Positions 13,663 to 37,150 of a stretch of 37,150 nt of DNA are shown in pieces; position 1 is the stretch's first letter; each line of letters opens with the position of its first letter. The DNA is from Levilactobacillus humaensis (GTDB lineage Bacteria > Bacillota > Bacilli > Lactobacillales > Lactobacillaceae), in NCBI RefSeq assembly GCF_024345185.1, contig NZ_BROB01000024.1, positions 1 through 37,150 on the forward strand, written 5' to 3'. A program made the position numbers and the translations under genes. Under the pieces are notes generated by a model. The model was not told the DNA's origin. It did no database searches and saw only the letters and a list, made by a program, of their open reading frames with translations.

Positions 13663-13679
13663 CAGTTGCACCTCCTAAA

Positions 13680-13760: not shown

Positions 13761-13784
13761 TCAATTTGCCTTTTTGCATTATTG

Positions 13785-13798
13785 TGTAAGCGCTATCA
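13785..13798. promoter_or_regulatory. cre box (CcpA site) of PTS cluster 1
   Basis: TGTAAGCGCTATCA fits the cre consensus fully and lies 34 bases before the EIIA start codon, over the probable promoter -10 (TATCAT at 13794-13799). This predicts carbon catabolite repression of cluster 1. Confidence 0.8.
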
Positions 13799-13831
13799 TT
13801 GTTCTTGTAGAAAGGAACGAGGTGAACAGGG

Positions 13832-14296: not shown

Positions 14297-14297
14297 C

Positions 14298-15389: not shown

Positions 15390-15407
15390 TTTACAGGAGA
15401 TGGCATT

Positions 15408-15713: not shown

Positions 15714-15747
15714 ACAGAAAAGCAAATTTATTGGAGGCAAATATATT

Positions 15748-17037: not shown

Positions 17038-17056
17038 TGTAAAGGAATGGTGACTG

Positions 17057-17296
17057 ATGAAACAAACAAATACAAGTAATCATGGTGTCGGCAAGTTTAT
17101 TCGCGGGTTAGTTATTACCGTCTGCACGCTGTTTATCCTCTACCTAATTATTGGGTTCTTTGGTTTAACCGCTGCACAGAAGACCACCGGGTTCATGTTT
17201 AGTTGGATTGGGATGTTCTTCGTCAGTGTTTACATCATCGTTCGTTGCATCTACCCGAGAGCGAGATTATCAAACCTCTTTCGAGGGAAGCTATAA
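17057..17296 (+). CDS. Small two-helix membrane protein
   Basis: A 79-residue protein of unknown function with two predicted membrane helices (about residues 16-36 and 43-62) and a basic C-terminus (RARLSNLFRGK). It is 19 bases after the GatZ-like gene with an AAAGGAATGG site, so it belongs to the same operon. It could assist the PTS permease, but nothing in the sequence shows this. Confidence 0.65.
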   Translation: MKQTNTSNHGVGKFIRGLVITVCTLFILYLIIGFFGLTAAQKTTGFMFSWIGMFFVSVYIIVRCIYPRARLSNLFRGKL

Positions 17297-17304
17297 GCAT
17301 AACA

Positions 17305-17334
17305 AAGAAGCCTTCCTTAACGGGAAGACTTCTT
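17305..17334 (+). terminator. Hairpin after the first part of cluster 1
   Basis: AAGAAG (17305-17310) pairs with CTTCTT (17329-17334), continued by an inner CTTCC/GGAAG stem. No T-run follows, so termination would be partial; it may act as a processing or stability element between the transporter part and the transketolase part of the cluster. Confidence 0.4.
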
Positions 17335-17395
17335 GGCATTAATAAACGAATACGGTTTTACGGCTAAAAACAGTATAGGTTATTTCTGCCGTTAA

Positions 17396-17409
17396 TGCAA
17401 GCGCTTTCA
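17396..17409. promoter_or_regulatory. cre-like box upstream of transketolase 1
   Basis: TGCAAGCGCTTTCA matches the cre consensus except for C at position 3. It lies 52 bases before the transketolase ATG. Its presence in a 165-base gap suggests a separate, CcpA-controlled promoter for the transketolase-EIIA-Enzyme I part. Confidence 0.65.
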
Positions 17410-17461
17410 ACTGCCGATTTTTAGGCTTTCTTAGGTTGCTAATGAAAACGGAGGAAAATCA

Positions 17462-19468: not shown

Positions 19469-19527
19469 GTTTGTCTCAGCTGGTTTCTAAATCTCTTGGA
19501 GGTTTTGGACTAGAAAGGGCGGTAGGA

Positions 19528-19977
19528 ATGGACTTAATGAGTACGATTAATCCAAATAATATTTCACTACATCTTGAATGTTCCGATCGAGAGGCACTGC
19601 TTCAAGAAATGACGCATTGGTTGTTTCAATCACATGCCATTACGAATGAAGCAGGCTTTCTAGAGGACGTTGAATACCGTGAAATGTTAGGAATGACTGG
19701 AATTGGCAATGAAGTTGCAGTTCCTCATGGGAGTAATTGTGTGGCCTATCCTACTGTCGCCATTGCAACCCTCCGAGCGCCAATCGCTTGGAAGAGTATT
19801 GATGATGCGCCAGTTCGGTTGGTTCTGTTATTTGCGGAACCTGACGAACCGACCCCTGATCAAGCCCATAACACGTTACTAACAAAAATGATTCAGAAAC
19901 TCAGCAATGATGAGACCCTGTATGCCGTGAAACAAGCGGCGACAGTGGATGAAATTGTAAACGCCTTGAAGGAATAG
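19528..19977 (+). CDS. Second PTS EIIA component, fructose/mannitol type (cluster 1)
   Basis: A 149-residue EIIA domain protein with the phospho-acceptor His67 in NEVAVPHGS. It is distinct from the EIIA that opens cluster 1: the sequences differ widely outside the active-site strand. The start is uncertain. I use the ATG at 19528 with AAAGGG eight bases upstream; an ATG at 19537 and a TTG at 19471 are alternatives. It lies between transketolase 1 and Enzyme I, so the cluster encodes two possible phosphate donors for one EIIB. It may have a regulatory rather than a transport role. Confidence 0.85.
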   Translation: MDLMSTINPNNISLHLECSDREALLQEMTHWLFQSHAITNEAGFLEDVEYREMLGMTGIGNEVAVPHGSNCVAYPTVAIATLRAPIAWKSIDDAPVRLVLLFAEPDEPTPDQAHNTLLTKMIQKLSNDETLYAVKQAATVDEIVNALKE

Positions 19978-20051
19978 GTCAGGAGCTAGTTGAACCGAAG
20001 TCTTTCGTCAGTTTCAATTTCGTGAAGAGTTGAAATGAAAAGAGGGATAAC

Positions 20052-21782
20052 GTGTCTAGCAAAATCAAAGGAATCGCAGCCAGCAATGGTATTGCTATCG
20101 AGAGTGCCTACGTTTTAGTTGAACCAGACTTATCTTTTGCCACTGGGAAGACGGTTGATGTGGACCAAGAGATTAGTAGCCTGCATGCCGCGCTGAAAGA
20201 TTCCGAAAAAGACTTAATTGTTATTAAGAAGAATGCTGCTGAATCTATGAGTGATGAGGAAGCTCAGGTTTTTGAAGCCCATATTACGATGGTCAATGAC
20301 CCTGAATTTATTGGGGCAATTGAAAAACAGATTCGTGGGGACCAAGTTAGTGCCGCCGAAGCTTTGAGTCAAGTGGCCGATCAGTTTATCGCTGTGTTTG
20401 AAGGGATGACTGATAATGCCTACATGCAAGCCAGAGCCGCTGATGTGAAGGATGTCCGTAAACGGGTTCTGAGCCATCTACTAGGTGTTGCACTGCCATC
20501 ACCGTCATTGATTGATCAACCGTCAATCGTGGTTTCTCATGATCTGACGCCAAGTGACACCGCCCAAGTTAACAAAGCCTTTGTTAAGGGGTTCGTGACG
20601 GATATTGGTGGTCGGACGTCTCATTCCGCTATCATGTCACGGACATTGGAAATTCCAGCAGTTGTCGGCAGTGAAACGGCAACACAGGTCATTCACAACG
20701 GTGATACGGTAATTGTGGATGGCTTGCACGGTGAGATCATCGTGAGTCCATCGGCTAAAGAGGTTGCGACTTATCAGCAAATGAAAGTCGATTATGACAA
20801 ACAACGAGCCGAGTGGGCTTTGTTAAAGAATGCTGATTCGGTCAGTCAAGATGGTAAAAAATTTACGATTGGCGCCAACATTGGGACACCCAAAGATGTC
20901 GAAGCCGTTACCGCTAACGGTGGGGATGCTGTTGGGCTGATGCGCTCAGAATTCTTGTATATGGATTCCCAGGAATTACCAACCGAAGAAGATCAGTTTG
21001 AAGCTTACAAAGCCGTTGTTAGCAAGATGAATGGTAAACAGGTGGTTGTCCGGACTATGGACATCGGGGGCGACAAGAAGTTGCCATACCTGCCACTACC
21101 AGAGGAAATGAACCCATTCTTAGGTTACCGGGCCATTCGGATTAGTTTGGATCGCCAAGAAATCTTCCGTACCCAACTGCGGGCACTGTTACGAGCTTCG
21201 CACTTTGGCAAATTGGCTATCATGTTTCCAATGATTGCTACGGTGGCCGAGTTCAAACAAGCTAAAGCAATCTTTGAAGAGGAGAAAGCCAAGCTGGTTG
21301 AACAGGGAACACCTGTTGCGGATGATATCGAAGTTGGGATGATGATGGAAATTCCTGCTGCCGCGATGATTGCAGACAAGTTAGCAAAGTATGCTGACTT
21401 CTTCAGTATTGGGACGAATGACTTGATTCAATATTCGTTTGCTGCAGATCGTGGGAATGAACATGTTTCCTATCTGTATCAGCCTTACAATCCATCATTG
21501 TTACGGTTGATCAAGCGGACCATTGATTGCGCACATGCCGAAGGAAAATGGGTTGGGATGTGTGGTGAAATGGCTGGTGACCAGGTTGCTGTTCCATTGT
21601 TAATGGGAATGGGCTTGGATGAATTCTCCATGAGTGCCACGTCAATTCTTCAGACGCGTTCACTAATGAAGACGCTGGATACGCAACAATTAACCGCTTT
21701 GGTTGATCGAGCGCTAGATGCCGAAGGCAATGATGAAGTAAAACAAATTGTTAACGACTTTACAGCCGTTCTCAATAAGTAA
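20052..21782 (+). CDS. ptsI: PTS Enzyme I, cluster-1 copy (PEP-protein phosphotransferase)
   Basis: A 576-residue Enzyme I, normal full length. It takes phosphate from phosphoenolpyruvate and gives it to HPr. His191 in [13 protein letters not shown] is the phosphorylated residue. The PEP-binding C-terminal part has RSEFLYM, the MDIGGDK segment, [12 protein letters not shown] and the conserved Cys in MCGEMAGD. The start is GTG, with AGAGGG close upstream. HPr is not encoded beside it, whereas housekeeping ptsI genes normally follow ptsH. It is highly similar to the copy at 26405 and ends in a very long hairpin. Confidence 0.95.
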
Positions 21783-21784
21783 TC

Positions 21785-21845
21785 AGTAGCGCAAAACAGA
21801 GAGACTGTGACTGTTGTCGCAGTCTCTCTGTTTTGCGCTACTTTT
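21785..21845 (+). terminator. Exceptionally long terminator hairpin of cluster 1
   Basis: A 23-bp perfect stem (21785-21807 with 21820-21842), extended by one G-U and three more pairs, closes on a TGTT loop. Four T residues end it. The rest of the gap to 22060 is AT-rich and holds nothing I can name. Confidence 0.8.
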
Positions 21846-22062
21846 ACGCTGATCTATCGGTTTTAGCTATCTTAACTTCTGTCCATTGCTTTGGACGAAA
21901 ACCAGATAGTTCTGTATATTCGATGGGTTTATGATTAAATTACGATGAATTCATAAGCGAAACTTCTCATTGTAAATCGCCTAGTGACAAGGGTTTATTG
22001 ATTAACAGCTAAGTAATTCAGCCAGTCTAAAGATGCAGAAAAAGGTATAAAGGTTCACTTCC

Positions 22063-22081
22063 TGCACTCTATAAGAGTGCA
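22063..22081. promoter_or_regulatory. Perfect inverted repeat TGCACTCT-ATA-AGAGTGCA, candidate operator
   Basis: An 8-bp perfect inverted repeat upstream of cluster 2, followed seven bases later by another TGCACT (22088-22093). Arms TGCACT recur in the inverted repeat upstream of cluster 1. It is likely the target of a PRD regulator; it is too AT-rich in the loop and lacks a T-run for a terminator. Confidence 0.5.
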
Positions 22082-22092
22082 CTGACTGCACT

Positions 22093-22106
22093 TGGAACCG
22101 TTTCCA
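22093..22106. promoter_or_regulatory. cre-like box upstream of PTS cluster 2
   Basis: TGGAACCGTTTCCA fits TGNAANCGNTNNCA, with arms TGGAA/TTCCA forming an inverted repeat. It sits 46 bases before the EIIA start codon, directly behind the TGCACT repeats. CcpA control is inferred. Confidence 0.6.
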
Positions 22107-22152
22107 TAACAAGTTAAGGTGTAGTTGTCTTTAGAAGCGGAGGTTGATTAGA

Positions 22153-22602
22153 ATGTTAGAAACTTTATTGACGCCCCAGACTGTCCAGGTAAGACAGGCT
22201 GGTCACCTAGACTGGAAGGAGGCAATTAAGCAGGCAGCATCGCCGTTGTTAACTACAGGGAAGGTTGAACAATCGTACGTTGATGCCATGATTAATGTTG
22301 TCGAGAAGAACGGCCCATTTATCAATATTGGACCCCACATTGCTTTAGCACATGCTCGTCCCGAGAATGGTGTAAATGAAATGTCAATGGCTCTCATGAA
22401 AGTTGATCCAGCGATCAACTTGGTTAGTGAAGACCATCCAATTACATTATTCTTCGTTCTGGCCGCTAGTGATAACACCAAACATTTGGAAGCGCTACAA
22501 GAATTAGTAATGAAGCTTCAAGATGCGGATAGTTTCGCCAGAATGGAAAAAGCAACAACTGTCGAAGAGTTGGTTAATGAATTCAGAGGAGTGGAAAAAT
22601 AA
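22153..22602 (+). CDS. PTS EIIA component, ascorbate/mannitol type (cluster 2)
   Basis: A 149-residue EIIA with His67 in HIALAHARPENGV, the pattern of ascorbate-type (UlaC/SgaA) and related EIIAs. It resembles the C-terminal EIIA domains of both flanking regulators. The ATG at 22153 follows GGAGG by nine bases; the in-frame TTG at 22144 overlaps that site. Its stop codon overlaps the EIIB start (TAATG). It is the first gene of cluster 2. Confidence 0.92.
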   Translation: MLETLLTPQTVQVRQAGHLDWKEAIKQAASPLLTTGKVEQSYVDAMINVVEKNGPFINIGPHIALAHARPENGVNEMSMALMKVDPAINLVSEDHPITLFFVLAASDNTKHLEALQELVMKLQDADSFARMEKATTVEELVNEFRGVEK

Positions 22603-22901
22603 TGAAAATCGCAGCAGTTTGCCAATCAGGTTTAGGTTCTAGCTTCATGATTCAAATGAACATCGACGCTGTCCTCAAAGCAGAAAACGTTGATACGGAT
22701 AACATTGAAGTTACCCACTTTGATACCGGTAGCATGAACGTTAATGCCGCTGATTACTTCTTCTTAGGGAACGACTTGGCTGAACAAGCTTCAGACATGC
22801 CAAAAGAAAAGGTCTTTGTCTTAAAGAGCATCATCGACAAGGATGAGTTGCAAGAAAAGCTCAATGTCTTATTAGACAGAGAAGGTATCAAGCACGACTA
22901 G
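22602..22901 (+). CDS. PTS EIIB component, ascorbate type (cluster 2)
   Basis: A 99-residue EIIB of the ascorbate (Sga/Ula) class, with phosphorylated Cys7 in CQSGLGSSFMIQMN. The ATG shares one base with the EIIA stop, so translation is coupled. The usual partner is the UlaA-type EIIC that follows. Confidence 0.93.
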   Translation: MKIAAVCQSGLGSSFMIQMNIDAVLKAENVDTDNIEVTHFDTGSMNVNAADYFFLGNDLAEQASDMPKEKVFVLKSIIDKDELQEKLNVLLDREGIKHD

Positions 22902-22934
22902 TGTTTTTAACGTTAGATTGGAGGAATAGCAATT

Positions 22935-24305
22935 ATGCAATCAGTTATTAATTTTATTGTTTCTATCGTTAGTACACCTGCCATCCTAGTTGGGTTAATT
23001 GCTTGTCTAGGTTTGGCACTTCAAAAGAAGCCCGGAACCAAGATCATGGAAGGGACTGTTAAGACCTTCGTTGGGTTCTTAGTTCTGACCGGTGGTGCCG
23101 GCATCTTGTCAAATTCATTGGCACCATTTGCTTCCATGTTCAAGTTTGCTTTACACGTTCAAGGGGTTGTTCCTTCTAACGAAGCCGTTGTGGCTATTGC
23201 CTTACAACAGTACGGGACCACGACCGCTTTGATCATGTTCGTTGGGATGATTGTCAACGTTCTGTTGGCACGTTTCACGAAGTTCAAGTACATCTTCTTA
23301 ACGGGTCAAGCAATGCTTTACGTTTCTTGTTTAACCGCCGTTATCCTGATCTCTACTGGGATGAAGGCCGGTGCAACCACGATTCTCTTAGGTGGGTTGT
23401 TTGAAGGGACCTTGTTAACTGTTACGCCAGCATTGTGTCAACCATTTATGCGTAAGATTACTGGTGGTGACGCCGTTGCCATGGGGCACACGGGTAACAT
23501 TGGTTATGCAACTGCCGGTTTGATGGGTAAGTGGTTCGGTGACTCCAAGAAGTCTACTGAAGACATCAATGTTCCTAAGGGCTTAAGCTTCTTACGGGAC
23601 TCAACTGTTTCTATTACATTGGTTATGGCTATTGTTTACTTAGTATTAGCTTTAGTTTCAGGTCCACATTTCGTTGAAACGAAGTTGAGTTCAGGCACCA
23701 ACTACTTAATTTACGCATTGACTCAAGCCGGGACTTTCGCCGCTGGTTTCTACGTTGTTTTAGCCGGTGTTCGGATGATCTTAGGTGAAATTGTGCCAGC
23801 CTTCCAAGGGATCGCTACGAAGTTGGTTCCAAATGCCAAGCCAGCCTTGGATGTTCCTATCATCTTCCCATACGCACCTAACGCTTTGCTGATTGGGTTC
23901 TTCGTCAGCTTCATCGTGGGTACCTTGAGTATGTTCGGGATGATCGCTATGGGGTCAACCGTTATTATCCCTGGTGTTGTTGGTCACTTCTTCTGTGGGG
24001 GTGCCGCTGGGATTTACGGGAACGCTACCGGTGGTCGTCGTGGGGCCATCATTGGTTCTGCTGTTAACAGTCTGCTGATCAGTTGGTTACCATTATTGAT
24101 TCTGCCTGTTCTGGGTGGTTTGAAGATGGCTGCTTCAACTTTCGCCGATACCGACTACTTGGTACCAGGTATCTTACTTGGTAACTTGGGTCACTACGGC
24201 CAAGCTGCTGTTATCGCTGGTATCATCGGCTTTACAGTTGTTGTTATTATTTGGTCTTTCTTCCTCAAGGGAAACAAGAAGGCTAAGACTGAAGCCGAAG
24301 GTTAA
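22935..24305 (+). CDS. PTS EIIC permease, ascorbate (UlaA/SgaT) family (cluster 2)
   Basis: A 456-residue permease of the ascorbate-galactitol superfamily with about ten to twelve membrane segments. Typical parts are PAILVGLIACLGLALQKK near residue 15, KTFVGFLVLTGGAGIL near 43, QPFMRKITGGDAVAMGHTGN near 172 and GGAAGIYGNATGGRRGA near 352. Family members carry L-ascorbate, but many lactobacillar relatives are thought to carry other sugars or polyols. The neighbours here (transketolase and Enzyme I, no UlaD/E/F-type ascorbate catabolic enzymes) argue against plain ascorbate use. Confidence 0.92.
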   Translation: MQSVINFIVSIVSTPAILVGLIACLGLALQKKPGTKIMEGTVKTFVGFLVLTGGAGILSNSLAPFASMFKFALHVQGVVPSNEAVVAIALQQYGTTTALIMFVGMIVNVLLARFTKFKYIFLTGQAMLYVSCLTAVILISTGMKAGATTILLGGLFEGTLLTVTPALCQPFMRKITGGDAVAMGHTGNIGYATAGLMGKWFGDSKKSTEDINVPKGLSFLRDSTVSITLVMAIVYLVLALVSGPHFVETKLSSGTNYLIYALTQAGTFAAGFYVVLAGVRMILGEIVPAFQGIATKLVPNAKPALDVPIIFPYAPNALLIGFFVSFIVGTLSMFGMIAMGSTVIIPGVVGHFFCGGAAGIYGNATGGRRGAIIGSAVNSLLISWLPLLILPVLGGLKMAASTFADTDYLVPGILLGNLGHYGQAAVIAGIIGFTVVVIIWSFFLKGNKKAKTEAEG

Positions 24306-24358
24306 ATTTAGAGCATCACTTTTTAAAATTTCAGTCCAAGGATAAGGAGTAATCGTTA

Positions 24359-26383
24359 ATGACAAACGCAGGCGTAAGCGAAGTTCAAGCGAACTTCACA
24401 GAGAAAGACGAATTAGCTGTTAATACTTTAAGAATGTTAAGTGTGGATATGATTGAAAAGGCTAAGTCAGGGCACCCAGGTTTGTGCTTGGATGCCGCTC
24501 CAATGGCTTATGTTTTATGGAACTACCACATGACGACTGATCCAAAGCGTCCTAACTGGATCAACCGTGACCGGTTTGTCCTTTCAGCAGGTCATGGTTC
24601 AGCCTTACTTTACAGCTTACTTCACATGAGTGGGTACGCGGTTAAGATGGATGACTTAAAGCAATTTCGGCAGATGGGTTCATTAACGCCCGGACATCCC
24701 GAATACGGTCACACCCCAGGCGTTGACGCAACGACTGGGCCACTGGGCCAAGGGATCGGCATGGCTGTTGGGATGGCCTTAGCTGAAAAGCATTTAGCAG
24801 CTAAGTACAACACGGCAGATTACGATTTAATCGATCACTGGACTTATTCAATCGTTGGTGATGGGGACTTGATGGAAGGGATCAGTCAAGAAGCCATCAA
24901 CATCGCTGGTAAGGAAAGACTGAACAAATTAATCGTGCTTTACGATTCAAACGACATTACGTTGGATGGACCGTTGGCCAATGGTTCTGTGGAAACGCAA
25001 AGCTACCGTTTCAAGGGTGCTGGCTGGAACTACCTCTTCGTCGAAGACGGGGAAGACTTAGCTGCCATCAACAACGCCATCAACGAAGCTAAGCGTTCAA
25101 CACAACCAACGCTCATTGAAGTTAAGACCGAAATTGGTCACGGTTCACCAGAAGCTGGGACAAACAAGGTTCACGGTTCCGCTTTAGGTGCTGAAAACGT
25201 CAAGAAGACTAAGGAATTCTATCACTGGAGTCAGACCCCATTCTCCGTTTCTGAAGACGCCTATGCCCAATTCAAGCAGGGCATTGAAGAACGCGGGACT
25301 TCTGCTCACCATGAGTGGACGGAACTCTACACGAATTACCAACGTAACGAACCTAAGTTGGCTGCTGACTTTACGCCTGAAGTAGGGCCTAAGTTGGACA
25401 TGAGCCAAGTTAAGTTGAGTGATGAAACGATTGGCAAGGAAGTTGCCACCCGTGTCAGCAACTCAGAATTGATGCAACAAATCTCCAAGTACAACCCGAA
25501 CTTCTGGGGTGGTGCTGCCGACTTGTTCTCAAGTAACAAGACCCAATTGAAGAATGAAGGTCGCTTTAACCCTGACGAACCTGCCAACGATAACGTTTGG
25601 TTTGGTGTTCGTGAATTCGGTGAAGCTACTGCCTTGAACGGGATGACCTTACATGGTGGTTCCCGTGTCTATGGGTCAACCTTCTTCACCTTCTCCGACT
25701 ACATGAAGGCTGCTATTCGTTTAGCTGCCTTACAGGGACTCCCTGTTACCTTCATCTTCACGCATGATACGATTGCCGTTGGTGAAGATGGCCCAACTCA
25801 TGAACCAATCGAACAACTGGCTGGTTTACGGGCTATTCCAAATGTGAATGTGATTCGTCCGGCCGATGCTCACGAAATGTTAGGGGCATGGCAAACGATC
25901 GCCAACACGACCGACAAGCCAACGGTCCTGGTTCTTTCTCGTCAAGGGTTACCTCTGCTGGAACAAACACGTCCAGAAAATGTTGCTCGTGGGGGCTACG
26001 TGGTTTCGCCAGCTAAGAACGAAGACTCAGATGGTATTTTAATGGCCACTGGTTCTGAACTCCAATTAGCACTGAAGGCCCAAGCTGCCTTACGGGAAAA
26101 GCAATACGATGTTTCTGTGGTTTCCATTCCTAGTGTCGAACTCTTCGACCAACAGAGTGAAGACTACAAGAACTCCGTCTTGCCACCAAAGGTTGACAAG
26201 CGGATCTCGATCGAAATGGACAGTACCTTTGGCTGGGGTAAGTACACCGGCTTAAAGGGTGCCAACATTGGGATCGATACCTTCGGATTAAGTGGTAAGG
26301 GTTCAGACATCATCGAACACTTTGGCTTTAATGCGGAGACCATCGTTAAGAAGTACGAAGAATTGTGGAAGAAGTCGGAATAA
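24359..26383 (+). CDS. tkt: Transketolase 2 (cluster 2)
   Basis: A 674-residue full-length transketolase, closely similar to transketolase 1 throughout. It has SGHPG with CLDAAP following, SAGHGSALLYSLLH, TTGPLGQG, GDGDLMEG and YDSNDITLDG, then FTHDTIAVGEDGPTHEP and RPADAHE. Codon use is more strongly biased than in copy 1, suggesting higher expression. It follows EIIC by 53 bases with AAGGAG and precedes the second Enzyme I by about 20 bases. Because the same enzyme type sits in both clusters, the two imported substrates probably meet the same step at the pentose-phosphate level (inference). Confidence 0.95.
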   Translation: MTNAGVSEVQANFTEKDELAVNTLRMLSVDMIEKAKSGHPGLCLDAAPMAYVLWNYHMTTDPKRPNWINRDRFVLSAGHGSALLYSLLHMSGYAVKMDDLKQFRQMGSLTPGHPEYGHTPGVDATTGPLGQGIGMAVGMALAEKHLAAKYNTADYDLIDHWTYSIVGDGDLMEGISQEAINIAGKERLNKLIVLYDSNDITLDGPLANGSVETQSYRFKGAGWNYLFVEDGEDLAAINNAINEAKRSTQPTLIEVKTEIGHGSPEAGTNKVHGSALGAENVKKTKEFYHWSQTPFSVSEDAYAQFKQGIEERGTSAHHEWTELYTNYQRNEPKLAADFTPEVGPKLDMSQVKLSDETIGKEVATRVSNSELMQQISKYNPNFWGGAADLFSSNKTQLKNEGRFNPDEPANDNVWFGVREFGEATALNGMTLHGGSRVYGSTFFTFSDYMKAAIRLAALQGLPVTFIFTHDTIAVGEDGPTHEPIEQLAGLRAIPNVNVIRPADAHEMLGAWQTIANTTDKPTVLVLSRQGLPLLEQTRPENVARGGYVVSPAKNEDSDGILMATGSELQLALKAQAALREKQYDVSVVSIPSVELFDQQSEDYKNSVLPPKVDKRISIEMDSTFGWGKYTGLKGANIGIDTFGLSGKGSDIIEHFGFNAETIVKKYEELWKKSE

Positions 26384-26404
26384 GCATTTGAGGTGAAGGC
26401 AGAC

Positions 26405-28129
26405 ATGTCAAAGAGAATTACAGGTATTGCAGCAAGTGATGGGATTGGGATCGCCAAGGCTTATCGCCTGGTTGACCCAGACCTGAGCTTCGAGAAAAAG
26501 TCAGTGACGGATGTGGACGCCGAAATCAAGCGTCTGACCCAAGCCATGAGTGACTCGACGGATGACTTGAAGGTTATTCGCGACAAGGCGGCGCAGAACC
26601 TTGGCGAGAGTGAAGCCGAAGTCTTCGATGCTCACATGACGATTCTGGCCGATCCTGAAATGACTGGACAAATTGAACAGCTCATTAAGGATCAGAAGAT
26701 CAACGCTGAAGAGGCTTTGAAAGAGGTCACTGACCAATTCATTGCCATCTTCGAGGGAATGACTGACAACAAGTACATGCAAGAACGAGCAGCCGATGTT
26801 AAGGATGTGACGAAGCGTGTCTTGAGTCACTTACTTGGGAAGGCACTGCCTAACCCAGCGTTAATTAACGAACCCGTCATCGTGATTGCTCACGATTTGA
26901 CCCCTTCTGATACCGCCCAGATGGATACCCAGTTTGTTAAGGGTTTCCTGACGGACCTCGGTGGTCGGACGAGTCACTCAGCTATCATGTCACGGACCTT
27001 GGAAGTGCCAGCGGTTGTTGGGACTGAAGAGGCCACTCAAGATGTTCAAGACGGGGATCTCCTCGTGTTGAACGGATTGGATGGATTTGCTCTGGTCGCT
27101 CCCGATAAGGATGAAGTTCATCAATATCAGGAACAGGCTAAGCAATACGCTCAAGAGCGTGCCGAATGGCGGAAATTGAAGGATGCGGCGTCCGTCTCTA
27201 AAGATGGCAAGCATTTCGAAGTTGCCGCTAACATCGGAACCCCAGATGACATCGACGCCGTTGTCGATGCCGGGGCCGAAGCGGTTGGGCTGTTCCGGAC
27301 GGAATTCCTTTACATGAACAGTGATAAGTTACCATCCGAAGATGACCAGTTCGAGGCTTACAAGTCCGTGGCTGAAGCCATGAAGGGTAAGCCAGTGGTT
27401 ATTCGGACGATGGATATTGGTGGGGACAAGCACCTCCCATACTTACCACTTCCCGAAGAAATGAACCCATTCCTGGGTTACCGGGCTATTCGGATTTCGT
27501 TGGACCGGCAAGAAATCTTCAGAACTCAGTTACGGGCACTGATCCGGGCTTCCCACTACGGTGAAATTCGGATTATGTTCCCAATGATTGCCACGCTGGA
27601 TGAATTCCGTGCAGCCAAGAAGGTCTTTACAGAAGAAAAGGCCAAGTTGGTTGCCGCCGGGGTTCCTGTAGCGGACGACATCAAGCTGGGGATGATGGTT
27701 GAAATTCCAGCCTCTGCGGTCTTTGCGGACCAATTTGCCAAGGAAGTTGACTTCTTTAGCATTGGGACTAATGACTTAATTCAATACACCTTTGCTGCCG
27801 ACCGTGGGAACGAACACGTTTCCTACCTCTACCAGCCTTACAATCCTGCCTTACTGCGGCTGATCAAGAATGTTATTGAAGCTGCTCACAAGGAAGGTAA
27901 GATTGCGGCGATGTGTGGTGAAATGGCCGGTGACAAGATTGCCGTGCCACTGTTGATGGGGATGGGCCTCGACGAATACTCGATGAGTGCTACCTCTGTC
28001 TTACGGGTTCGGAGTGAAATGAAGAATATTGACACCACTGATTGGGCTAAGGTTGTTGACGAGGCTGTCACGACCTGCCAGACCAATGAAGAGGTCAAGG
28101 CTCTCGTGGAAAAGCACCTTCAGGCTTAA
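26405..28129 (+). CDS. ptsI: PTS Enzyme I, cluster-2 copy (PEP-protein phosphotransferase)
   Basis: A 574-residue Enzyme I with all catalytic marks: His191 in [39 protein letters not shown] and Cys in MCGEMAGD. The ATG at 26405 follows GAGGTGAAGG; an in-frame GTG at 26393 lies inside that site. It is the last gene of cluster 2, with no HPr gene nearby. Similarity to the cluster-1 copy is high along the whole length, so the two are recent paralogues or allied transfers. Confidence 0.95.
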
Positions 28130-28165
28130 TCACGAGTTGTCAGAATTAAAAGAATAATTTTCGCA

Positions 28166-28204
28166 AAACGTATGGCTGCCAAGTGTCTTTGGCGTCATAC
28201 GTTT
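28166..28204 (+). terminator. Hairpin at the end of cluster 2
   Basis: AAACGTATG (28166-28174) pairs with CATACGTTT (28196-28204), with an inner GCCAA/TTGGC stem. The following CGTGTTTC is only weakly T-rich, so termination may be incomplete. Confidence 0.6.
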
Positions 28205-28257
28205 CGTGTTTCAGGCGCTGACGAGAAATCGTTGGGTCTGCGGAACAAAATTCAGCG

Positions 28258-28266
28258 TGGTACAAT
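28258..28266 (+). promoter_or_regulatory. Extended -10 promoter of the second PRD regulator
   Basis: TGG-TACAAT forms an extended -10 element (TGnTACAAT); no good -35 is present. Transcription would start near 28273, giving a leader of about 130 bases before the ATG. Confidence 0.5.
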
Positions 28267-28292
28267 CAATACCAATTAGGTTTGTCGATCAA

Positions 28293-28323
28293 TCAGTTGT
28301 GGGGTTCGACTCCCTGCGACTGA
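28293..28323 (+). other. tRNA-like acceptor/T-arm minihelix in the regulator leader
   Basis: Twelve continuous base pairs (28293-28304 with 28312-28323, three G-U) close a seven-base loop TTCGACT. Geometry and sequence equal a tRNA acceptor stem stacked on a T arm (12 bp, TTCRANY loop), without D or anticodon arms and without a CCA end. It may be a tRNA remnant, a mimic in the mRNA leader, or chance. Confidence 0.4.
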
Positions 28324-28402
28324 CTTAAAAGGGTGACGCGGTTTAGGGAAATGTGGACCGGTCACAAGGCTTGTTAGTTTGGAGAATTGATGAGGTAAGA
28401 CG

Positions 28403-30448
28403 ATGCTAAACATTAGTGAAAAGGGTCAAATCAACCTATTAGTTTCCATTTTGGCTGAGGGTAAAAAGTATAAAACGGTGGCTGACCTTGAGGATAAGAT
28501 GAGTCTTTCGCGGCGCAGTGTCTTCTATTGGTTGAAGCAGACCAATGGGGCGTTGAAAAACTTGGGACTGGACGATATTCAACGTCTGTCTCAAGGGGGG
28601 TACTTCTTGACGCAATCGACGCTAGATGATCTGCAGGCACACAACCAGGCCGACGCACGACCCGTCTTAAATGCCGAGGAGCGGCGTCAAATGATTATCT
28701 GGGCTCTCATCCAGCATAACCAGCATCTCTCACTGGTGAACCTGTCAGAGCGTTTAGAAGTCTCCAAAAATACCATCATTAAGGATTTCCGGGAGCTGGT
28801 AGCCAATTTGCCAGTCGATACGGAAGTCATCAATACCAGTCATGGGAAGGCTTTGGTCGGGAGCGAAGTGTCGCAACGGCAATGGGTCTATCAACAACTC
28901 GCCCAACAAAATCCACTGATTATTCAGCAAATTCAAAAGCTACCGCGCCTGCAGGTCGTGACAGAACGGTTAACGCAATTACAGGTGGATACGGGAAACT
29001 CGTATAGTGGGGATGCCGCGCAACTCCTAATCTGGTATCTGGCTTGGCTCCTGAATCGGCTACAGGACCGGGATCGTGAGCTAACGGGTGTCAGCAATTA
29101 TCCGTTAGACCAGTACAGCCAGTGGTGTGAGTCTCTCCTGGACCAGTATGGTCGGGTCAGCCCGGCGGAAGTTGGGAGTTTGCGAAAGCTTCTGTTAGCG
29201 GGCCAACTACAACAGGTCAATGAGGATGGTCAGTTCAGCAAGCGACTCCTGACGACCACGAAGAATGTGGCCGAACGCTTCAGTTCCGTTTCCGGCATAG
29301 ATCTGGTCACGGATGCCTTCTTAGGTGCCTTGGCGACCCACCTTTACTCCACCTACTTTCGAATTAAATATAATGTGCAGTACCACAATGCTAATCTGAC
29401 GGATGTGAAGTTGGAATATAGCTATCTGATGAGCCTAACGAAGTATGCGCTGAAACCCTTTGAAGACTTCCTGCAATCGCCAGTTTCTAGTGATGAGTTG
29501 GCCCTGATTGCGGTGTATTTTGGTGGTGAAGTTAAACGGATTTCACCGGACTGGCTCGCGTCAGAGAAGCAACCGGATGTACTCCTGGTCTGCACCAGTG
29601 GGATCGGGACAAGTCTCATTTTGTATCAACAACTCTCGGATCGTTATCCTGGAATCAGCTTCTCACAACCCTTTAGCTTGTCAGAATTTAAGAAGATGGA
29701 TTTGACGCATGGCGCACCCAAGCTGGTCTTGACCACGGCTAAAATGGAAGCAACTGGCGAGGTGCCCAGCCTATGGGTGCAGGCAATTCCGAATTCCAGT
29801 GACTTTCAACGGCTGAGTCAGGAATTCCGGCAGCTGGGACTGCTGGATAATTCTCGTGAGACCAAGCTGGTGCATGCGGTTCTAGATATTATTACGGACT
29901 ACGCGCGAGTCGATGATTTCGAGGGACTCACGGCGAGTTTACAAGATTACTTCCAGCAGGTGCCGGCGGATACGACGGTCATGCCCAACAATCGACCGTC
30001 ACTCGCGGACTTGTTGACGGTTGCTCATATCCAACTGCTCGATACGGCGGTAGACTGGCAGTCCGCCGTACATACGGCGATGGCGCCATTGGAACGTGAC
30101 AACTCGGTTGAAGCCAGATATGCCGATCAAATCATCAATATTACCTTGGATAATGGGCCGTACATGATGATTAAAGACGGCGTCATGTTGGCCCATGCGA
30201 AACCAGAAGATGGGGTCAACCAATTGGGGATGTCCTTACTGATTCTAAAAAAGCCGACAACCATGGTGGTTGACGGCAAGTCCAAACGGCTTCAGGTTAT
30301 CTTTGGTCTAGCTTCGGTGGATCGAGATGCCCACGTCCACGCCTTGAGTCAGTTGTTGGCGTTACTTCAAGATGAGGGACTCTACCAAAAGTTACTAGGG
30401 GCAAATAATCTTGAAATTGTTCAAGAAGTCATTCAAAAAGTTCAATGA
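28403..30448 (+). CDS. PRD-type PTS regulator (MtlR/LicR-like) of cluster 2
   Basis: A 681-residue paralogue of the regulator at 11596. Domains in order: helix-turn-helix (about 25-50), second helix-turn-helix (NLSERLEVSKNTIIKDF, about 112-130), two PRDs (about 185-375), EIIB-like with Cys397 in LVCTSGIGTS, and EIIA with a His in VMLAHAKPEDGV near residue 600. PRD2 has the His in ATHLYSTYF but Tyr instead of the second His (VYFGG), as in the paralogue. GAGGT precedes the ATG. Two DNA-binding domains and no RNA-binding (CAT) domain indicate a DNA-binding activator rather than an antiterminator. Target choice between the two clusters is inferred from proximity. Confidence 0.87.
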   Translation: MLNISEKGQINLLVSILAEGKKYKTVADLEDKMSLSRRSVFYWLKQTNGALKNLGLDDIQRLSQGGYFLTQSTLDDLQAHNQADARPVLNAEERRQMIIWALIQHNQHLSLVNLSERLEVSKNTIIKDFRELVANLPVDTEVINTSHGKALVGSEVSQRQWVYQQLAQQNPLIIQQIQKLPRLQVVTERLTQLQVDTGNSYSGDAAQLLIWYLAWLLNRLQDRDRELTGVSNYPLDQYSQWCESLLDQYGRVSPAEVGSLRKLLLAGQLQQVNEDGQFSKRLLTTTKNVAERFSSVSGIDLVTDAFLGALATHLYSTYFRIKYNVQYHNANLTDVKLEYSYLMSLTKYALKPFEDFLQSPVSSDELALIAVYFGGEVKRISPDWLASEKQPDVLLVCTSGIGTSLILYQQLSDRYPGISFSQPFSLSEFKKMDLTHGAPKLVLTTAKMEATGEVPSLWVQAIPNSSDFQRLSQEFRQLGLLDNSRETKLVHAVLDIITDYARVDDFEGLTASLQDYFQQVPADTTVMPNNRPSLADLLTVAHIQLLDTAVDWQSAVHTAMAPLERDNSVEARYADQIINITLDNGPYMMIKDGVMLAHAKPEDGVNQLGMSLLILKKPTTMVVDGKSKRLQVIFGLASVDRDAHVHALSQLLALLQDEGLYQKLLGANNLEIVQEVIQKVQ

Positions 30449-31197: not shown

Positions 31198-31623
31198 ATG
31201 AAAATTAACGGATCGTACTGGTTACGTCAAGCCGGGATTGGCCTGGTCATCGTCCTCGTCATTGCCCTCCTAGGGCATCTGAACTACGCGCAATGGCGGT
31301 TGATGCCTGGCATTACTGGGGCCGACTGGTACTTTTTAATCAGTTGGTTATGTTTCCCATTTGCCAAGTGGGCGATCTTAGAGGATAACCGAGATGTCAA
31401 AGCGCCAACGGTTCGGCGCAAGCGTAAACGCCGACGTCGGGCAGCCGATGAGACGGCCTCGGTCTACGAGAAGATGGGCAAGTCCCAACGTGAACCACGG
31501 CTAACTGCGGCTCCTAAGACCGCTTTGAAGTGGTACTGGCGCGGGTTGATCGACATTGTGGTGGCCTTCGTGGGTCCCTTAATTTTAGGAGGCTACATCA
31601 CTTATTCGCTACGACACAATTAA
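31198..31623 (+). CDS. Hypothetical membrane protein with basic cytoplasmic loop
   Basis: A 141-residue protein that I do not recognise. There are hydrophobic segments at about 10-28, 44-58 and 115-136. The middle holds a very basic run (RRKRKRRRR, near residues 73-81) that should lie inside the cell and could contact RNA, DNA or phospholipids. AAAGGTGG precedes the ATG. It is divergent from the GreA-family gene. Confidence 0.7.
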   Translation: MKINGSYWLRQAGIGLVIVLVIALLGHLNYAQWRLMPGITGADWYFLISWLCFPFAKWAILEDNRDVKAPTVRRKRKRRRRAADETASVYEKMGKSQREPRLTAAPKTALKWYWRGLIDIVVAFVGPLILGGYITYSLRHN

Positions 31624-31689
31624 ATTGTGCTGATTATCCGGGCATTAACGTGCAAATATTGACGTTTTTGCCATTTAACGACTGATAAG

Positions 31690-32027
31690 CTAAGAACATG
31701 GTAAAGTGATAACAGTTGGAAGGGGTCAGTTTTACGGAAACTGATTTCGCGAATCAATCAATTAAAGTATGCGTGATTAACACGACATCTGGGGGATATT
31801 GATTGGGACGTACTTGAGATTATCTAATCACATGGCGGCTTGGTAGAACGCAATCTTTGTCAGATGCTTAGGATGGCTAGTAACAAGACTTTCAGCAGTG
31901 ACTGAAGAGTAAGTGTACAGCAGTATCTGATGACTTAATTAGAACTTGGGGGAGTGCTAATTTAGCCAGCACCAAATTAAATAATCCATGCGGATTGGGA
32001 ACTATCTGAGGGGATGGTTCCTTTTTT
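31690..32027 (+). ncRNA. Candidate structured non-coding RNA upstream of the two-component operon
   Basis: The 490-base gap before the response regulator holds no credible ORF but ends in a good terminator, so a transcript probably covers it. Local hairpins near the end include AATCC-ATGC-GGATT (about 31983-31996) and GTGCT...AGCAC. The promoter is uncertain: TTGCCA (31668-31673) or TTGACG (31659-31664) could be -35 boxes. No known riboswitch or T-box core was recognised. A long leader with an attenuator for the downstream operon is an alternative. Confidence 0.35.
31998..32027 (+). terminator. Terminator upstream of the response regulator promoter
   Basis: GGAACTATC (31998-32006) pairs with GATGGTTCC (32013-32021), with one G-U pair and loop TGAGGG, and is followed by six T residues. 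Confidence 0.85.
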
Positions 32028-32035: not shown

Positions 32036-32071
32036 AAAACGATTGCAAGTCGTCGCGATTCAATATATATT
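32036..32071 (+). promoter_or_regulatory. Promoter of the two-component operon
   Basis: TTGCAA (32043-32048) and TATATT (32066-32071) are spaced by 17 bases. The -35 is embedded in AAAACGATTGCAA (32036-32048), a 13-mer that recurs with one change at the promoter near 35630. This suggests shared control, possibly by CcpA or by the response regulator itself. Confidence 0.7.
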
Positions 32072-32115: not shown

Positions 32116-32874
32116 ATGATGTTAGCCGTGTACCTGTGTGAAGACAATCCAGAACAATTACAACACTATAACGACGTGATCAAGCGCTACATCATGATTA
32201 ATGACTATGATATGGTGGTTAATCTCGCCACGCCCAGCCCCCAAGACCTCCTGAAGGCACTTGAGGAAAATCCGCCGGAGTATGCGCTGTTCTTCCTCGA
32301 TATCGAGTTTCCTGCGGAGAAGATGAGTGGGTTAGAGACGGCCATTGCCATTCGAAAGCTCCTGGGTTTTGCCGAAATTGTCTTCGTGACCACGCATTCC
32401 GAAATGGCGCTCCTGACCTTCGAACGAAAGGTGGAACCGATGGATTTCATCGTCAAGGACTTGGGGCGTACTCAGATCGACCAGAAGCTCCGCGAGAACG
32501 TCGACTACGGTTATCAGCGCTACACGAACTATCTCGGCAACACCGAAAATCTCTTCAGCTATAGCATTGGTGGCCGAAATTTCAGTCTGTCAATGGGGGA
32601 TGTGTACTTTGTGGCGACAGCGGAGACGCCGCATAAGGTCACGGTGCACGCGGCCAACCAGTTAGTGGAGTTCCCGGGTTTTTTGAAGGACATTGCCGAC
32701 CAGTATCCGGAGCTCTACCGAACGGACAAGAGTTTTCTGGTGAATCTCGACAATGTTAGTGGGATCGATTCGGAGAAACGACGTCTGATTTTTCCTAATG
32801 GCGACGAGACAGACGTGGCCACTCGCCGATTCCACGAGGTCAAAACGTTGGTACAAAAGCATTTAAAATCCTAA
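32116..32874 (+). CDS. LytTR-family response regulator
   Basis: A 252-residue regulator of the AgrA/PlnC type. The receiver domain (about 1-130) keeps the acidic pair in LCEDN, the phospho-acceptor Asp in FFLDIEF, Thr in VTTHSE and Lys in DFIVKD, so it should be phosphorylatable. A LytTR DNA-binding domain (about 145-248) follows: FSYSIGGRNFSL, DVYFVAT, LYRTDKSFLVNL, RRLIFPNGDETDV. AAAGGG precedes tandem ATGs at 32116 and 32119; either could be used. It is the first gene of an operon with two kinase homologues (12-base and 4-base gaps). Such regulators bind pairs of short direct repeats, but I found no clear pair in the window. Confidence 0.92.
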   Translation: MMLAVYLCEDNPEQLQHYNDVIKRYIMINDYDMVVNLATPSPQDLLKALEENPPEYALFFLDIEFPAEKMSGLETAIAIRKLLGFAEIVFVTTHSEMALLTFERKVEPMDFIVKDLGRTQIDQKLRENVDYGYQRYTNYLGNTENLFSYSIGGRNFSLSMGDVYFVATAETPHKVTVHAANQLVEFPGFLKDIADQYPELYRTDKSFLVNLDNVSGIDSEKRRLIFPNGDETDVATRRFHEVKTLVQKHLKS

Positions 32875-32886: not shown

Positions 32887-34215
32887 ATGGACGCCGTGCT
32901 ACAACTATTCGGACGTCAATTTTGGACAAATTTCGTGTTGGCGATGACCATGCAGTGGTTCCTCACGATTTGGATTGGTCTCATTCGACCACAAAACTGG
33001 AAATTACCCCTGAAATGGGTCGGCTGGGCGTTGATCCCAGCCTTTATTGGGGCGCCATGGAGTCTGCTCATTCCGCCGATCAGTGCTTGGTTCTATTTGC
33101 TCCGGCACCGGCGGCATTTGGTGTTGATTTTTGTCAACGCCACCATTGTGATCTTTCTAGTGGTCGTTCTGATTAACGATGTGACGCGACAGGTAGCCAT
33201 CGAGCTCTGGAGCAGAAAAATTGCCGACGGCGCTCCGGCCATTGCGGCGCGGCTGCTCTTTCAGATTTTTATCTATAGTCTGATCTCCCTAGCGGTATCC
33301 GGTATGCATATCCAGCCCGGGAATCTCACCAAATTGGCGTTGAGTCGTAAGGAACAGTGGACGGTCATGGCCATGCTAGCCAGTCTCACGGTGCTGGCAG
33401 AGACGTCGTCACGCATCATTCATCACCTCCAAATCTCACACGCTATGCTGACATTTTCTTTGAGTATCGAACTGGTGATGGTGCTCTTGATCTCGGCGAG
33501 CCTCTTCGGCTTTCTCCAGAGCTTCTTCTCGCGTCAACGGATGCGGGCAAAGTACCAGGAAACGCTGTTAAGAACACGCTACGACCGGCGAATCTCTGAT
33601 CAAGTTCAAGCGATTCGCCAATTCAAGCAAATTTATCAAAAGCAGATGCTTCAGCTGGGAGATTACCTGGATGCCAAGGATTATGAGGGCTTAGCGGCGT
33701 ATTATGAGACACTCAACAACCGTTGGCAGGCCACGAGTCACTTGGCCGGACTGGAGGCGGACGGTCTCCAGCAGCTAGGGGACCCCGCTCTAAAGAGTCT
33801 GTTATTTCAGAAAATACTAGCTGCCCAGAACCAGGGACGCGATCTGCATCTGGAGATTCCCGATGCCATCGTTAGCCTCCCCATGGCCAGTATGGATCTG
33901 TTGCGAATTGTCGGGATTCTGCTAGATAACGCTATCGAGGCCCCAATTGTTGGTGATCGGGCAGAGCTTTATTGTGCCATTTTAGTTTATCCGGAATCTT
34001 ATGAGATCGCTGTCGCCAATCCCGTTTCCCCGACAACGCCCCCCCAGATTAATCGATTCCTGAAGGCGGGCTATACGACCAAGGGAAATGGTCACGGTCA
34101 AGGACTCAGCACTGTGAGGGAATTGATTGATCAGACCGAGAACGCTGCCCTGCAGGTGGCGGTAAAACGCGGGATGTTGTACTTTACCGTGATTTTAACC
34201 AAGCCGGGGAGGTGA
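32887..34215 (+). CDS. AgrC-like kinase homologue A: ATP-binding half, phospho-acceptor His missing
   Basis: A 442-residue membrane protein with six or seven N-terminal membrane segments (about 1-212) and a cytoplasmic AgrC/PlnB-type (HPK10) kinase region. The GHKL domain is intact: N box LLDNAIEA (345-352, with Asn348) and G box KGNGHGQGLS (399-408). The dimerisation helix, however, reads FKQIYQK at 246-252 where the family has F(R/K)HDYxN: the phospho-acceptor His is Gln248 and the following Asp is Ile. It should bind ATP but cannot phosphorylate itself on the usual residue. It probably acts in trans on the next gene's product. The ATG at 32887 follows GAGGG; an in-frame GTG lies one codon earlier. 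Confidence 0.88.
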   Translation: MDAVLQLFGRQFWTNFVLAMTMQWFLTIWIGLIRPQNWKLPLKWVGWALIPAFIGAPWSLLIPPISAWFYLLRHRRHLVLIFVNATIVIFLVVVLINDVTRQVAIELWSRKIADGAPAIAARLLFQIFIYSLISLAVSGMHIQPGNLTKLALSRKEQWTVMAMLASLTVLAETSSRIIHHLQISHAMLTFSLSIELVMVLLISASLFGFLQSFFSRQRMRAKYQETLLRTRYDRRISDQVQAIRQFKQIYQKQMLQLGDYLDAKDYEGLAAYYETLNNRWQATSHLAGLEADGLQQLGDPALKSLLFQKILAAQNQGRDLHLEIPDAIVSLPMASMDLLRIVGILLDNAIEAPIVGDRAELYCAILVYPESYEIAVANPVSPTTPPQINRFLKAGYTTKGNGHGQGLSTVRELIDQTENAALQVAVKRGMLYFTVILTKPGR

Positions 34216-34219
34216 GCGT

Positions 34220-35542
34220 ATGATTACAGTGAGTATTTGGAGTTTCGCGGTGGCGGACTTTACGTTGATTTTTTGGTTTATCTACTTTCAGTATTACTGG
34301 TTCCCCGAACTACGGCAGAAACACTTTCTCACCTACTGCGCTGGGATGGCGATCGGCTTCACCTTCCTGGATATCGTCAACCCCTTCACTGCTCGGAGTT
34401 CCTTACTGGGGGCACTAGCGGTCGTGGTCATGCTGGTGATTGAGGTCGCGCTCCTCGCCAAGGGTCATCAGTGGCAGTATTTACCGGCTTTCATCGACGT
34501 GACCATTATGGCCTACCTGCTGACGGAATTTGTCGATATGGTGGTGTTAAATGGTATCATCTGGCTGACCAGTCTGAGCTTTGCCACCAGCTGGTGGGGG
34601 ACCTTGACGGGAATGACCATTGATGCCGTTATCTTTACGTTGATGGCGATGAGTCTGTGGTTGACGCGAGCCCCAATGGAAAATCTTATTCAAGCGACGA
34701 TCGGCAGGTCTATGGAGTATCTCTTTCTGATCTTTATGACTGGGATTGCCCTGGTGTACATTCTCTTCGAATACTCTTTACAGGAGTTGGCCGATTCCGA
34801 CCACTACCTGATCTTTCTGACGGGGGTTACCGGAACCCTGTTGATTGGCTTGTCATTGAGTACCTATATGCTGATGCTGACCCATTTGCAAGAGGAACAT
34901 ACCCAGCTTCAACGGCAACAACAGGAATTTCGTGAACAATATACCAGTGAATTGAACCGACAAATGGGCGCGATTCGCAAGTTCAGCCACGATTATCAAA
35001 ACATGTTGTTGGGACTCGGTGGTTACCTTGAGGACAAAGATTACGAGGGGTTTCGGCAATTGTACATCGACATCCGCTCGGGTTGGGAGACTAGTAACGC
35101 AGCGGAATTGACGATTGATGATCTCTCCAATATTCCCAGTGCTAGTCTGCGTTTCGATGTTTACCATAACTACTTGGTGGCCCAGGAAGCCGGGGTTCAG
35201 CTGTTTATCAAGGTACCAGAACCCCTGACTGCGACGATTACGACCCTCAAGCTGATGGGCACGCTGTTGAATCGGACACTCCCTCCATTGGTCGATGGCG
35301 TGAAACATCTGAAACCAGCGGTGGTGACGCTGGATCTTCAGGAAACGGCGCAACTCGTCCGCTTTCAAGTCATCTTCCCGGTACCGGATGATGCGCAAGT
35401 TGGCGGTGAGGCTCGCGTTCAGAGTGAAGAGGCCGAGTTGGACCTGTCGCGCCTGCAGCGCGTGCTCCCCACGAGTGCCACCAGTACGCTGAAATTAAAG
35501 CGCCACTGGGGCCAGTTAACGGTGGCCTTACCGAAGGGATAG
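34220..35542 (+). CDS. AgrC-like kinase homologue B: phospho-acceptor half, ATP-binding boxes missing
   Basis: A 440-residue paralogue of the preceding gene. About six membrane segments (1-222) lead to a dimerisation helix with an intact phospho-acceptor: FSHDYQN at 255-261, His257. The following LGGYLEDKDYEGF matches LGDYLDAKDYEGL of homologue A. The C-terminal domain is degenerate: where A has LLDNAIEA it has LLNRTLPP (349-356), and no glycine-rich G box exists in the last 80 residues. It should be phosphorylated but should not bind ATP normally. Its ribosome binding site (GGGGAGG, 34206-34212) lies over the stop codon region of homologue A, four bases before its ATG, so the two are co-translated, as expected for a heteromeric kinase. 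Confidence 0.88.
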   Translation: MITVSIWSFAVADFTLIFWFIYFQYYWFPELRQKHFLTYCAGMAIGFTFLDIVNPFTARSSLLGALAVVVMLVIEVALLAKGHQWQYLPAFIDVTIMAYLLTEFVDMVVLNGIIWLTSLSFATSWWGTLTGMTIDAVIFTLMAMSLWLTRAPMENLIQATIGRSMEYLFLIFMTGIALVYILFEYSLQELADSDHYLIFLTGVTGTLLIGLSLSTYMLMLTHLQEEHTQLQRQQQEFREQYTSELNRQMGAIRKFSHDYQNMLLGLGGYLEDKDYEGFRQLYIDIRSGWETSNAAELTIDDLSNIPSASLRFDVYHNYLVAQEAGVQLFIKVPEPLTATITTLKLMGTLLNRTLPPLVDGVKHLKPAVVTLDLQETAQLVRFQVIFPVPDDAQVGGEARVQSEEAELDLSRLQRVLPTSATSTLKLKRHWGQLTVALPKG

Positions 35543-36508: not shown

Positions 36509-37150
36509 TTGGTTAAATTAGGGCGAACAATCAAGCTGAGACTCTATCCGGACACGGATCAAGCAGAACAATTTTTGGCGATGAGCCAGGAATATCAACG
36601 ATTAGCTAATATTGTTAGTCAATGGATCTTTGACCATGAGTTTCAGTTAAGCTGGTTAAAGATCAATCACCATCTGTACAAAGTATTTAGACAAAGTTCA
36701 GAACTCAATAGCCAGATGATTCAGTCTGTTTTCCGAACAGTCTCAGCTTGCTACAAAACTGTTCGAGATCAAATGAAACAACATCCTTACCGTTACAAGA
36801 ACGAAAAAAACAAATGGATTCAAGCTCCTAGAGACCTGACCTGGTTGGTTAAACCCATCCAATTTCGCCGACCACAAGCAGATTTGGTTCGCCGGGGTAA
36901 TTACTCTTTTGCAAATGGAATGAGAAAAATCTCGATAACCACTCTGGGCAAACGGACTAAGCTGAATTTCACTAACAAAGGATTCGAAAAATACTTTACC
37001 GGTGACTGGAAGCTTGGGACCGCCAAGTTAGTCCATAACCAAGACAAATGGTTTCTGTACATTGGCATCACGAAAGAAGTTAGCGACTTCGATCCTAAGG
37101 ATAATCCGCAAATCGTAGGAATTGATCGCGGATTGCGCTTCCTAGCAACT
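36509..37150 (+). CDS. tnpB: IS200/IS605-type TnpB (RNA-guided nuclease family), partial
   Basis: The first 214 codons of a TnpB-type protein; the gene runs off the window. It starts at a TTG with GGGGAGG close upstream. The N-terminus (TIKLRLYPDTDQAEQF) is the usual TnpB start, followed by a helical region, then TAKLVHNQDKWFLYIGI and IVGIDRGLRFLAT, where Asp206 is the first catalytic residue of the RuvC-like nuclease. No TnpA (Y1 transposase) is found upstream, so on this side it is a TnpB-only element. TnpB proteins are RNA-guided DNA nucleases whose guide RNA is normally made from the element's right end, which lies outside the window. Confidence 0.88.
   Translation, partial: MVKLGRTIKLRLYPDTDQAEQFLAMSQEYQRLANIVSQWIFDHEFQLSWLKINHHLYKVFRQSSELNSQMIQSVFRTVSACYKTVRDQMKQHPYRYKNEKNKWIQAPRDLTWLVKPIQFRRPQADLVRRGNYSFANGMRKISITTLGKRTKLNFTNKGFEKYFTGDWKLGTAKLVHNQDKWFLYIGITKEVSDFDPKDNPQIVGIDRGLRFLAT

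Follow-up and report, generated by a model that had tools for sequence, protein, structure and literature searches.

A sensor kinase probably divided over two adjacent AgrC-like proteins in Levilactobacillus

A response regulator gene (R) and two genes for AgrC-like proteins (A and B) lie in the order R, A, B on the forward strand of a 37,150-nucleotide stretch of Levilactobacillus humaensis (contig NZ_BROB01000024.1, positions 1 to 37,150; the whole stretch is hereafter the window; Table 1). Only 12 bases separate R from A and 4 bases separate A from B, and gaps this short suggest that the three genes form a single translationally coupled operon. The closest named relatives of the window B protein come from L. 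paucivorans (96%), L. lindianensis (93%) and L. huananensis (92%). By reading the catalytic motifs of A and B in the window and across the genus, we found that the half of the kinase machinery missing from one homologue is not the half missing from the other, and R-A-B is probably a two-component system in which the sensor kinase is divided over two full-length homologues that work as an A:B heterodimer.

Protein A retains an N box (LLDNAIEA) and a G box (KGNGHGQGLS), and its H box (FKQIYQK) carries Gln248 at the place of the phospho-acceptor histidine (counted from the ATG at 32887; the residue is number 249 from the alternative GTG at 32884, and the gene stops at 34215). Protein B retains His257 in FSHDYQN, the place of its N box reads LLNRTLPP, and its G box is absent. 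Consistent with these motifs, a GHKL domain was found above the Pfam cut-off at residues 334-436 of A, and the window B protein matched no ATPase family in Pfam at E 1 or better, its one match being unrelated and below the cut-off. The NCBIfam AgrC model covered residues 65-429 of A (122.5 bits) and only residues 64-338 of B (56.7 bits), both far below its cut-off of 500. For A and B alike, the top match among solved structures was AgrC (6e52; E 9.4e-35 for A and 6.9e-10 for B), and profile alignments to the AgrC kinase module placed both Gln248 and His257 in the column of the H-box histidine of 6e52. Both proteins are full-length chains, with a whole catalytic or acceptor domain missing in neither, and single-chain structure prediction modelled the C-terminus of B as an ATP-domain fold. 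R has Response_reg and LytTR domains above the Pfam cut-offs and scores 130 bits against the NCBIfam AgrA model (below the cut-off of 400), and its acidic pair E8 and D9, together with D61, T91/T92 and K113, is invariant in 13 aligned R sequences. An earlier, sequence-only reading of the window had given the ATP site to A, the acceptor histidine to B and a full set of phosphorylation residues to R, and each assignment was recovered here at these residues, as was the equivalence of Gln248 and His257 in an alignment to an AgrC-type kinase.

Within the genus, A and R were each detected in 34 of 35 genomes, and for A these were all the genomes of at least 90% completeness; the remaining genome (G401, 72% complete) yielded no A, no R and no B (best B match E 0.0135 over 83 residues). 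Proteins were searched for B in 25 genus genomes and G401, and elsewhere B was read from fetched loci. Reading 34 genus loci (33 plus the window) with one script, we found A directly before B in all of them, and R intact and directly before A in 30; the four exceptions are a contig edge before R (L084), an R split by an insert (L087), an R in two frames (L112) and an insert of ~2 kb between R and A (L103). The inserts in L103 and L087 carry opposite-strand open reading frames (ORFs) of 429 and 391 amino acids, respectively, and are perhaps mobile elements. In seven genomes (L106-L112) a single A is followed by two tandem B copies, of which the first in L111 is split over two frames.

Motifs were then counted in 34 A proteins, 41 B proteins and 43 control kinases from other genera of the family, the controls being hand-picked from the stronger A/B matches and so not a random sample (45 kinase ORFs in 40 loci, of which two incomplete ones of <400 amino acids, both in L128, were dropped). 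The N-box Asn and the G-x-G-L motif are present in every A protein (34/34), while the acceptor position is Gln in 24, Arg in five and His in five. Every B protein keeps H-D-x-x-N (41/41) and none has the N-box Asn or G-x-G-L (0/41 each), and all 43 controls have the His, Asp, Asn, N-box Asn and G-x-G-L. With the A pattern in 34 of 34, the B pattern in 41 of 41 and neither loss in any control, the swap is more than chance, and an origin by chance or misreading was ruled out. For the sequence-only reading, B orthologues with intact N and G boxes or a failure of A and B to co-occur in related genomes would have been evidence against it, and in the genus loci neither was seen. Complementary loss as a general habit of neighbouring kinases was also considered and was rejected, though from few loci: apart from L128, kinases of this type stand in twos or threes at three loci of other genera (L130, L133 and L134), and all seven proteins keep both halves. 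Outside the genus, no close B-type protein was found in the 397 family genomes sampled (best match 63.3 bits), and the best match to A there reached 144.6 bits.

In a tree of 118 kinases, the A and B clades each received a support of 100, and a larger group with a support of 97 united both clades with L113 and L114, which are single kinases from another genus. The gene order at L113 and L114 is R then kinase. Branching among A, B and L113/L114 was drawn open and the program warned of long branches meeting, so A and B need not be each other's closest relatives. Likewise, the first- and second-position B copies of the two sub-groups with tandem copies do not pair simply. A parsimonious reading would be that a regulator-kinase pair had its kinase duplicated and that complementary loss followed before the genus radiated. 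To estimate selection, we calculated the ratio of nonsynonymous to synonymous substitution rates (dN/dS) by the Nei-Gojobori method from pairs of low synonymous divergence only (17 for A, 11 for B and 20 for R), and the values thus rest on close species. These ratios were 0.090, 0.052 and 0.062 for the membrane part, the linker plus dimerisation and histidine-phosphotransfer (DHp) part, and the ATP part of A; 0.048, 0.018 and 0.038 for the membrane, linker-plus-DHp and C-terminal parts of B; and 0.030 and 0.023 for the two domains of R. A and B are both under strong purifying selection, and the low ratios mean that the parts of each protein that lack their motifs are still strictly maintained. 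Genus-wide motifs and selection on both genes support the division of labour proposed by the sequence-only reading, with the ATP site in A and the phospho-acceptor in B. Its phrase 'reciprocal decay' does not fit the present state, in which both losses are genus-wide and seemingly old and stable.

Since neither A nor B retains the whole machinery and each lacks what the other keeps, they very probably must cooperate for signal transfer in this genus of food lactobacilli. In the mechanism that we propose, A and B would be membrane sensors that pair via their dimerisation helices, and the ATP domain of A, which has no acceptor of its own, would phosphorylate His257 of B across the dimer. B, without an ATP site, would then transfer the phosphoryl group to R at Asp61, and may act as a phosphatase on R as well, because the Asn of its HDxxN motif is kept. 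By itself, neither A nor B has the look of a complete kinase, so both sensors would be required for signalling and two inputs could be integrated; in the seven species with tandem copies, a single A would be shared by two different B proteins. The physical pairing, the route of the phosphate and the qualifier 'obligate' are our inferences, as are the phosphatase role and the two inputs. The charge of the stretch before the H box is of interest for pairing: over the 36 residues preceding the H box, net charge averages +4.9 in A (range 2 to 7, basic in 34 of 34), -0.9 in B (range -4 to 2, n=41) and 0.1 in the other kinases (range -3 to 3, n=43). Of five stretches compared, four lie before the H box, and in each of these A has the most basic average; in the one behind it, A, B and the other kinases are all acidic on average. 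This basic stretch may disfavour A:A pairing.

Among engineered mutants of AgrC, one without its acceptor histidine was reportedly complemented by one with a broken ATP site in a 2009 study. AgrC is described as trans-autophosphorylated (PMC10482373), and a kinase of this type with opposite halves on its two chains would be expected to function as a heterodimer. Autophosphorylation of AgrC is reportedly disrupted by H239Q (PMC12930874), a His-to-Gln change that A carries naturally. AgrC of Staphylococcus aureus (HPK10), with its partner AgrA, shares the domain order and LytTR partner of A and B, but has both functions in one chain, where A and B have them on two genes. A search for AgrB (PF04647) matched none of 35 genus genomes, and as the 14 control genomes gave a single match and none above the cut-off, its sensitivity is not demonstrated. 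The pair CheA3 and CheA4 of Rhodobacter sphaeroides has the acceptor and the ATP domain on different proteins, as A and B have the corresponding motifs, and neither CheA protein autophosphorylates alone (PMC3591291). CheA3 and CheA4 are CheA types of a cytoplasmic cluster from which whole domains are missing, whereas A and B are full-length AgrC-type membrane proteins with motif loss only, encoded side by side. Hik36 and Hik43 of Synechocystis are described as a kinase spread over two genes with a common regulator (PMC7656254); unlike A and B, they derive from a split CheA-type gene, of which the histidine-phosphotransfer (HPt) part lies far from the catalytic part in the genome. In RetS-GacS (PMC12189002) and HrrS-ChrS (PMC9491836) two different sensor kinases pair, and the accounts consulted describe no complementary loss of halves. 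Split kinases and kinase heterodimers are therefore already known, and what appears to be new here is an AgrC-type pair with complementary motif loss. Searches of open-licence PubMed Central papers, which take in little of the subscription literature, turned up no account of such loss in a pair of full-length AgrC-type homologues, and absence from print is not claimed.

Several observations weigh against the A:B heterodimer. The sequence-only reading had counted an intact acceptor histidine in A orthologues as evidence against it, and at the position itself a histidine does occur, in five of the 34 A proteins (L085, L087, L088, L089 and L109), while no A protein regains a canonical H box, because the +1 Asp and the +4 Asn are absent from all 34 (H-D-x-x-N 0/34). 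On a tree built without the motif columns, the His state among A proteins amounts to two changes, and with Gln as the commonest state the histidine looks regained rather than retained. The acceptor position of A can thus vary and is occasionally His, which is the chief finding against the division of labour in its simplest form. Moreover, the charge argument is weak, since single A proteins reach 0 in two of the four stretches, and charge does not disfavour B:B pairing. The structure models are of moderate confidence (mean predicted local distance difference test score, pLDDT, of 69.8 for B and 62.9 for A). A and B could also both be homodimers that meet only transiently, A phosphorylating B as in a relay of separate proteins like CheA4/CheA3, in which the CheA4 ATP domain is reported to bind the CheA3 acceptor domain transiently (PMC3591291). 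Sequence complementarity alone cannot separate such a relay from a heterodimer, and B homodimers would retain a complete site for phosphotransfer and phosphatase activity. We nevertheless regard the relay as unlikely, given the strong selection on the DHp parts of both proteins, the unusually basic signalling helix of A (a weak argument) and the near-equal lengths of two homologous AgrC-type subunits, for which one would expect pairing of the kind seen in AgrC.

A and B would exchange no phosphate if one partner were a pure allosteric pseudokinase, with another kinase of the cell phosphorylating B or with A merely regulating R. Degenerate modulator kinases are described (DivL and an evolved ChrS variant; PMC9491836), and three further matches to GHKL, the family to which the ATP domain of A belongs, occur in the genome of the window, two of them above the cut-off. 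Only A and B themselves, however, match A in that genome at E 0.001 or better, and a pseudokinase leaves unexplained both the complementary loss in every genome read and the ATP-site motifs kept by A; we consider it quite improbable. That the pair is decaying or non-functional and retained by chance could be argued from the disrupted loci (the insert in R of L087, the R of L112 and the one B copy of L111 split over two frames, and the R-A insert of L103), and is very improbable in view of dN/dS values that stay between 0.02 and 0.09 throughout R, A and B among close pairs, which rule out pseudogene decay, and of the presence of A in all 34 sufficiently complete genomes.

Upstream of R, a genus-conserved stretch follows the stop (31623) of a 141-amino-acid ORF and contains, in order, a repeat element, an extended -10, a terminator-like hairpin with T-run and a promoter-like sequence for R (Table 1). 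The ORF itself (31198-31623, forward strand) encodes a protein with apparently two membrane helices, whose cluster occurs before R in 28 of the 34 loci and for which a Pfam search gave no credible match.

Table 1 Features of the R-A-B locus in window coordinates.
Feature	Position	Strand	Description
Repeat element TTAACGTGCAAATATTGACGTTTTTGC	31645..31671	+	Candidate operator for R; half-sites LytTR-like by eye
Extended -10, TGgTAAAGT	31699-31707 (-10 itself 31702-31707)	+	
Putative structured non-coding RNA	31713..32027	+	Start inferred from the extended -10; ends in terminator-like hairpin and T-run
Promoter-like sequence before R	32043..32071	+	TTGCAA, 17 bp, TATATT
R, AgrA-like response regulator	32119..32874	+	Receiver and LytTR DNA-binding domain; phosphorylation residues all kept
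A, AgrC-like kinase	32887..34215	+	ATP-site motifs intact; Gln248 replaces acceptor His, without the adjacent Asp/Asn
Gln248 codon (CAA) of A	33628..33630	+	At the place of the acceptor His
B, AgrC-like protein	34220..35542	+	His257-Asp-x-x-Asn intact; N box and G box lost; predicted site-less ATP-domain fold at C-terminus
His257 codon (CAC) of B	34988..34990	+	Acceptor

The core of the putative RNA, TTGGGGGAGTG, was found in all 33 loci that have upstream sequence, and its loop reads AACTTGGGGGAGTG. A longer core pattern, searched in the 397 family genomes, occurred in 24 of 25 genus genomes (once each) and in 1 of 372 others, the sole miss within the genus being a one-base variant (G279, locus L110). 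None of 100 shuffles folds as well as the window RNA (z -4.3), and the 5' stretch, found in 30 loci, mostly folds no better than shuffles. In an alignment of 25 of the 33 sequences, there is little variation in the predicted core hairpin, and only the terminator shows clear two-sided changes. Rfam gave the putative RNA no match at the gathering score and none that was credible by E-value. The RNA is a possible target of R, which would link it to the kinases. A promoter pattern like that before R was found in 31 of 34 genus loci, with no match in L086 and L108 and the stretch lacking in L084. This promoter-like sequence is overlapped at 32036-32048 by AAAACGATTGCAA, which we take to be cre-box-like and which recurs with variants in many genus loci. 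The half-sites of the repeat element are spaced 14 and 16 bp apart as read by eye, and its pattern has one zero-mismatch copy in the genome and four more places at three mismatches, equal to the number of control matches (4). The AgrA sites at P2 are described as two 9-bp sites 12 bp apart (PMC10482373), and as the spacing differs, the assignment of the element as the operator of R is a guess.

The layout of the RNA and its upstream element recalls that of agr P3-RNAIII. On this likeness one may tentatively picture, as a doubtful extension, an agr-like module that would define the genus: an obligate heterodimer of AgrC type, with an ATP half and an acceptor half, would drive an AgrA-type regulator whose single main target would be the promoter of the RNA, a hitherto undescribed counterpart of staphylococcal RNAIII. 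Species with two B proteins would form two different heterodimers around a single A and thereby gain a second input.

Elsewhere in the window, translations read by eye at 11596-30448 indicate two adjoining sugar-use clusters, each with an apparent regulator of phosphotransferase system (PTS) type, a transketolase and its own enzyme-I-like (PtsI-like) protein; such dedicated enzyme I copies appeared unusual. Beyond B, the start of an ORF resembling the IS605 OrfB transposase lies at 36509-37150 (forward strand), with a single Pfam match that is weak and below the cut-off.

The usual description of a histidine kinase is a homodimer, each chain of which contains what both halves of the reaction need. 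Levilactobacillus appears to depend on two chains with half each, arising from complementary motif loss in two homologous genes. If this is true, R-A-B would provide a natural and tractable obligate heterodimeric sensor, and a counterpart in nature of the experiments in which mutants of a single kinase complement each other. According to modelling work, split kinases can respond in a switch-like manner under certain conditions (PMC3591291), and a response of this type could apply to A and B. The pair would likewise serve as a test bed for how kinase pairs become locked in and how two inputs are combined.
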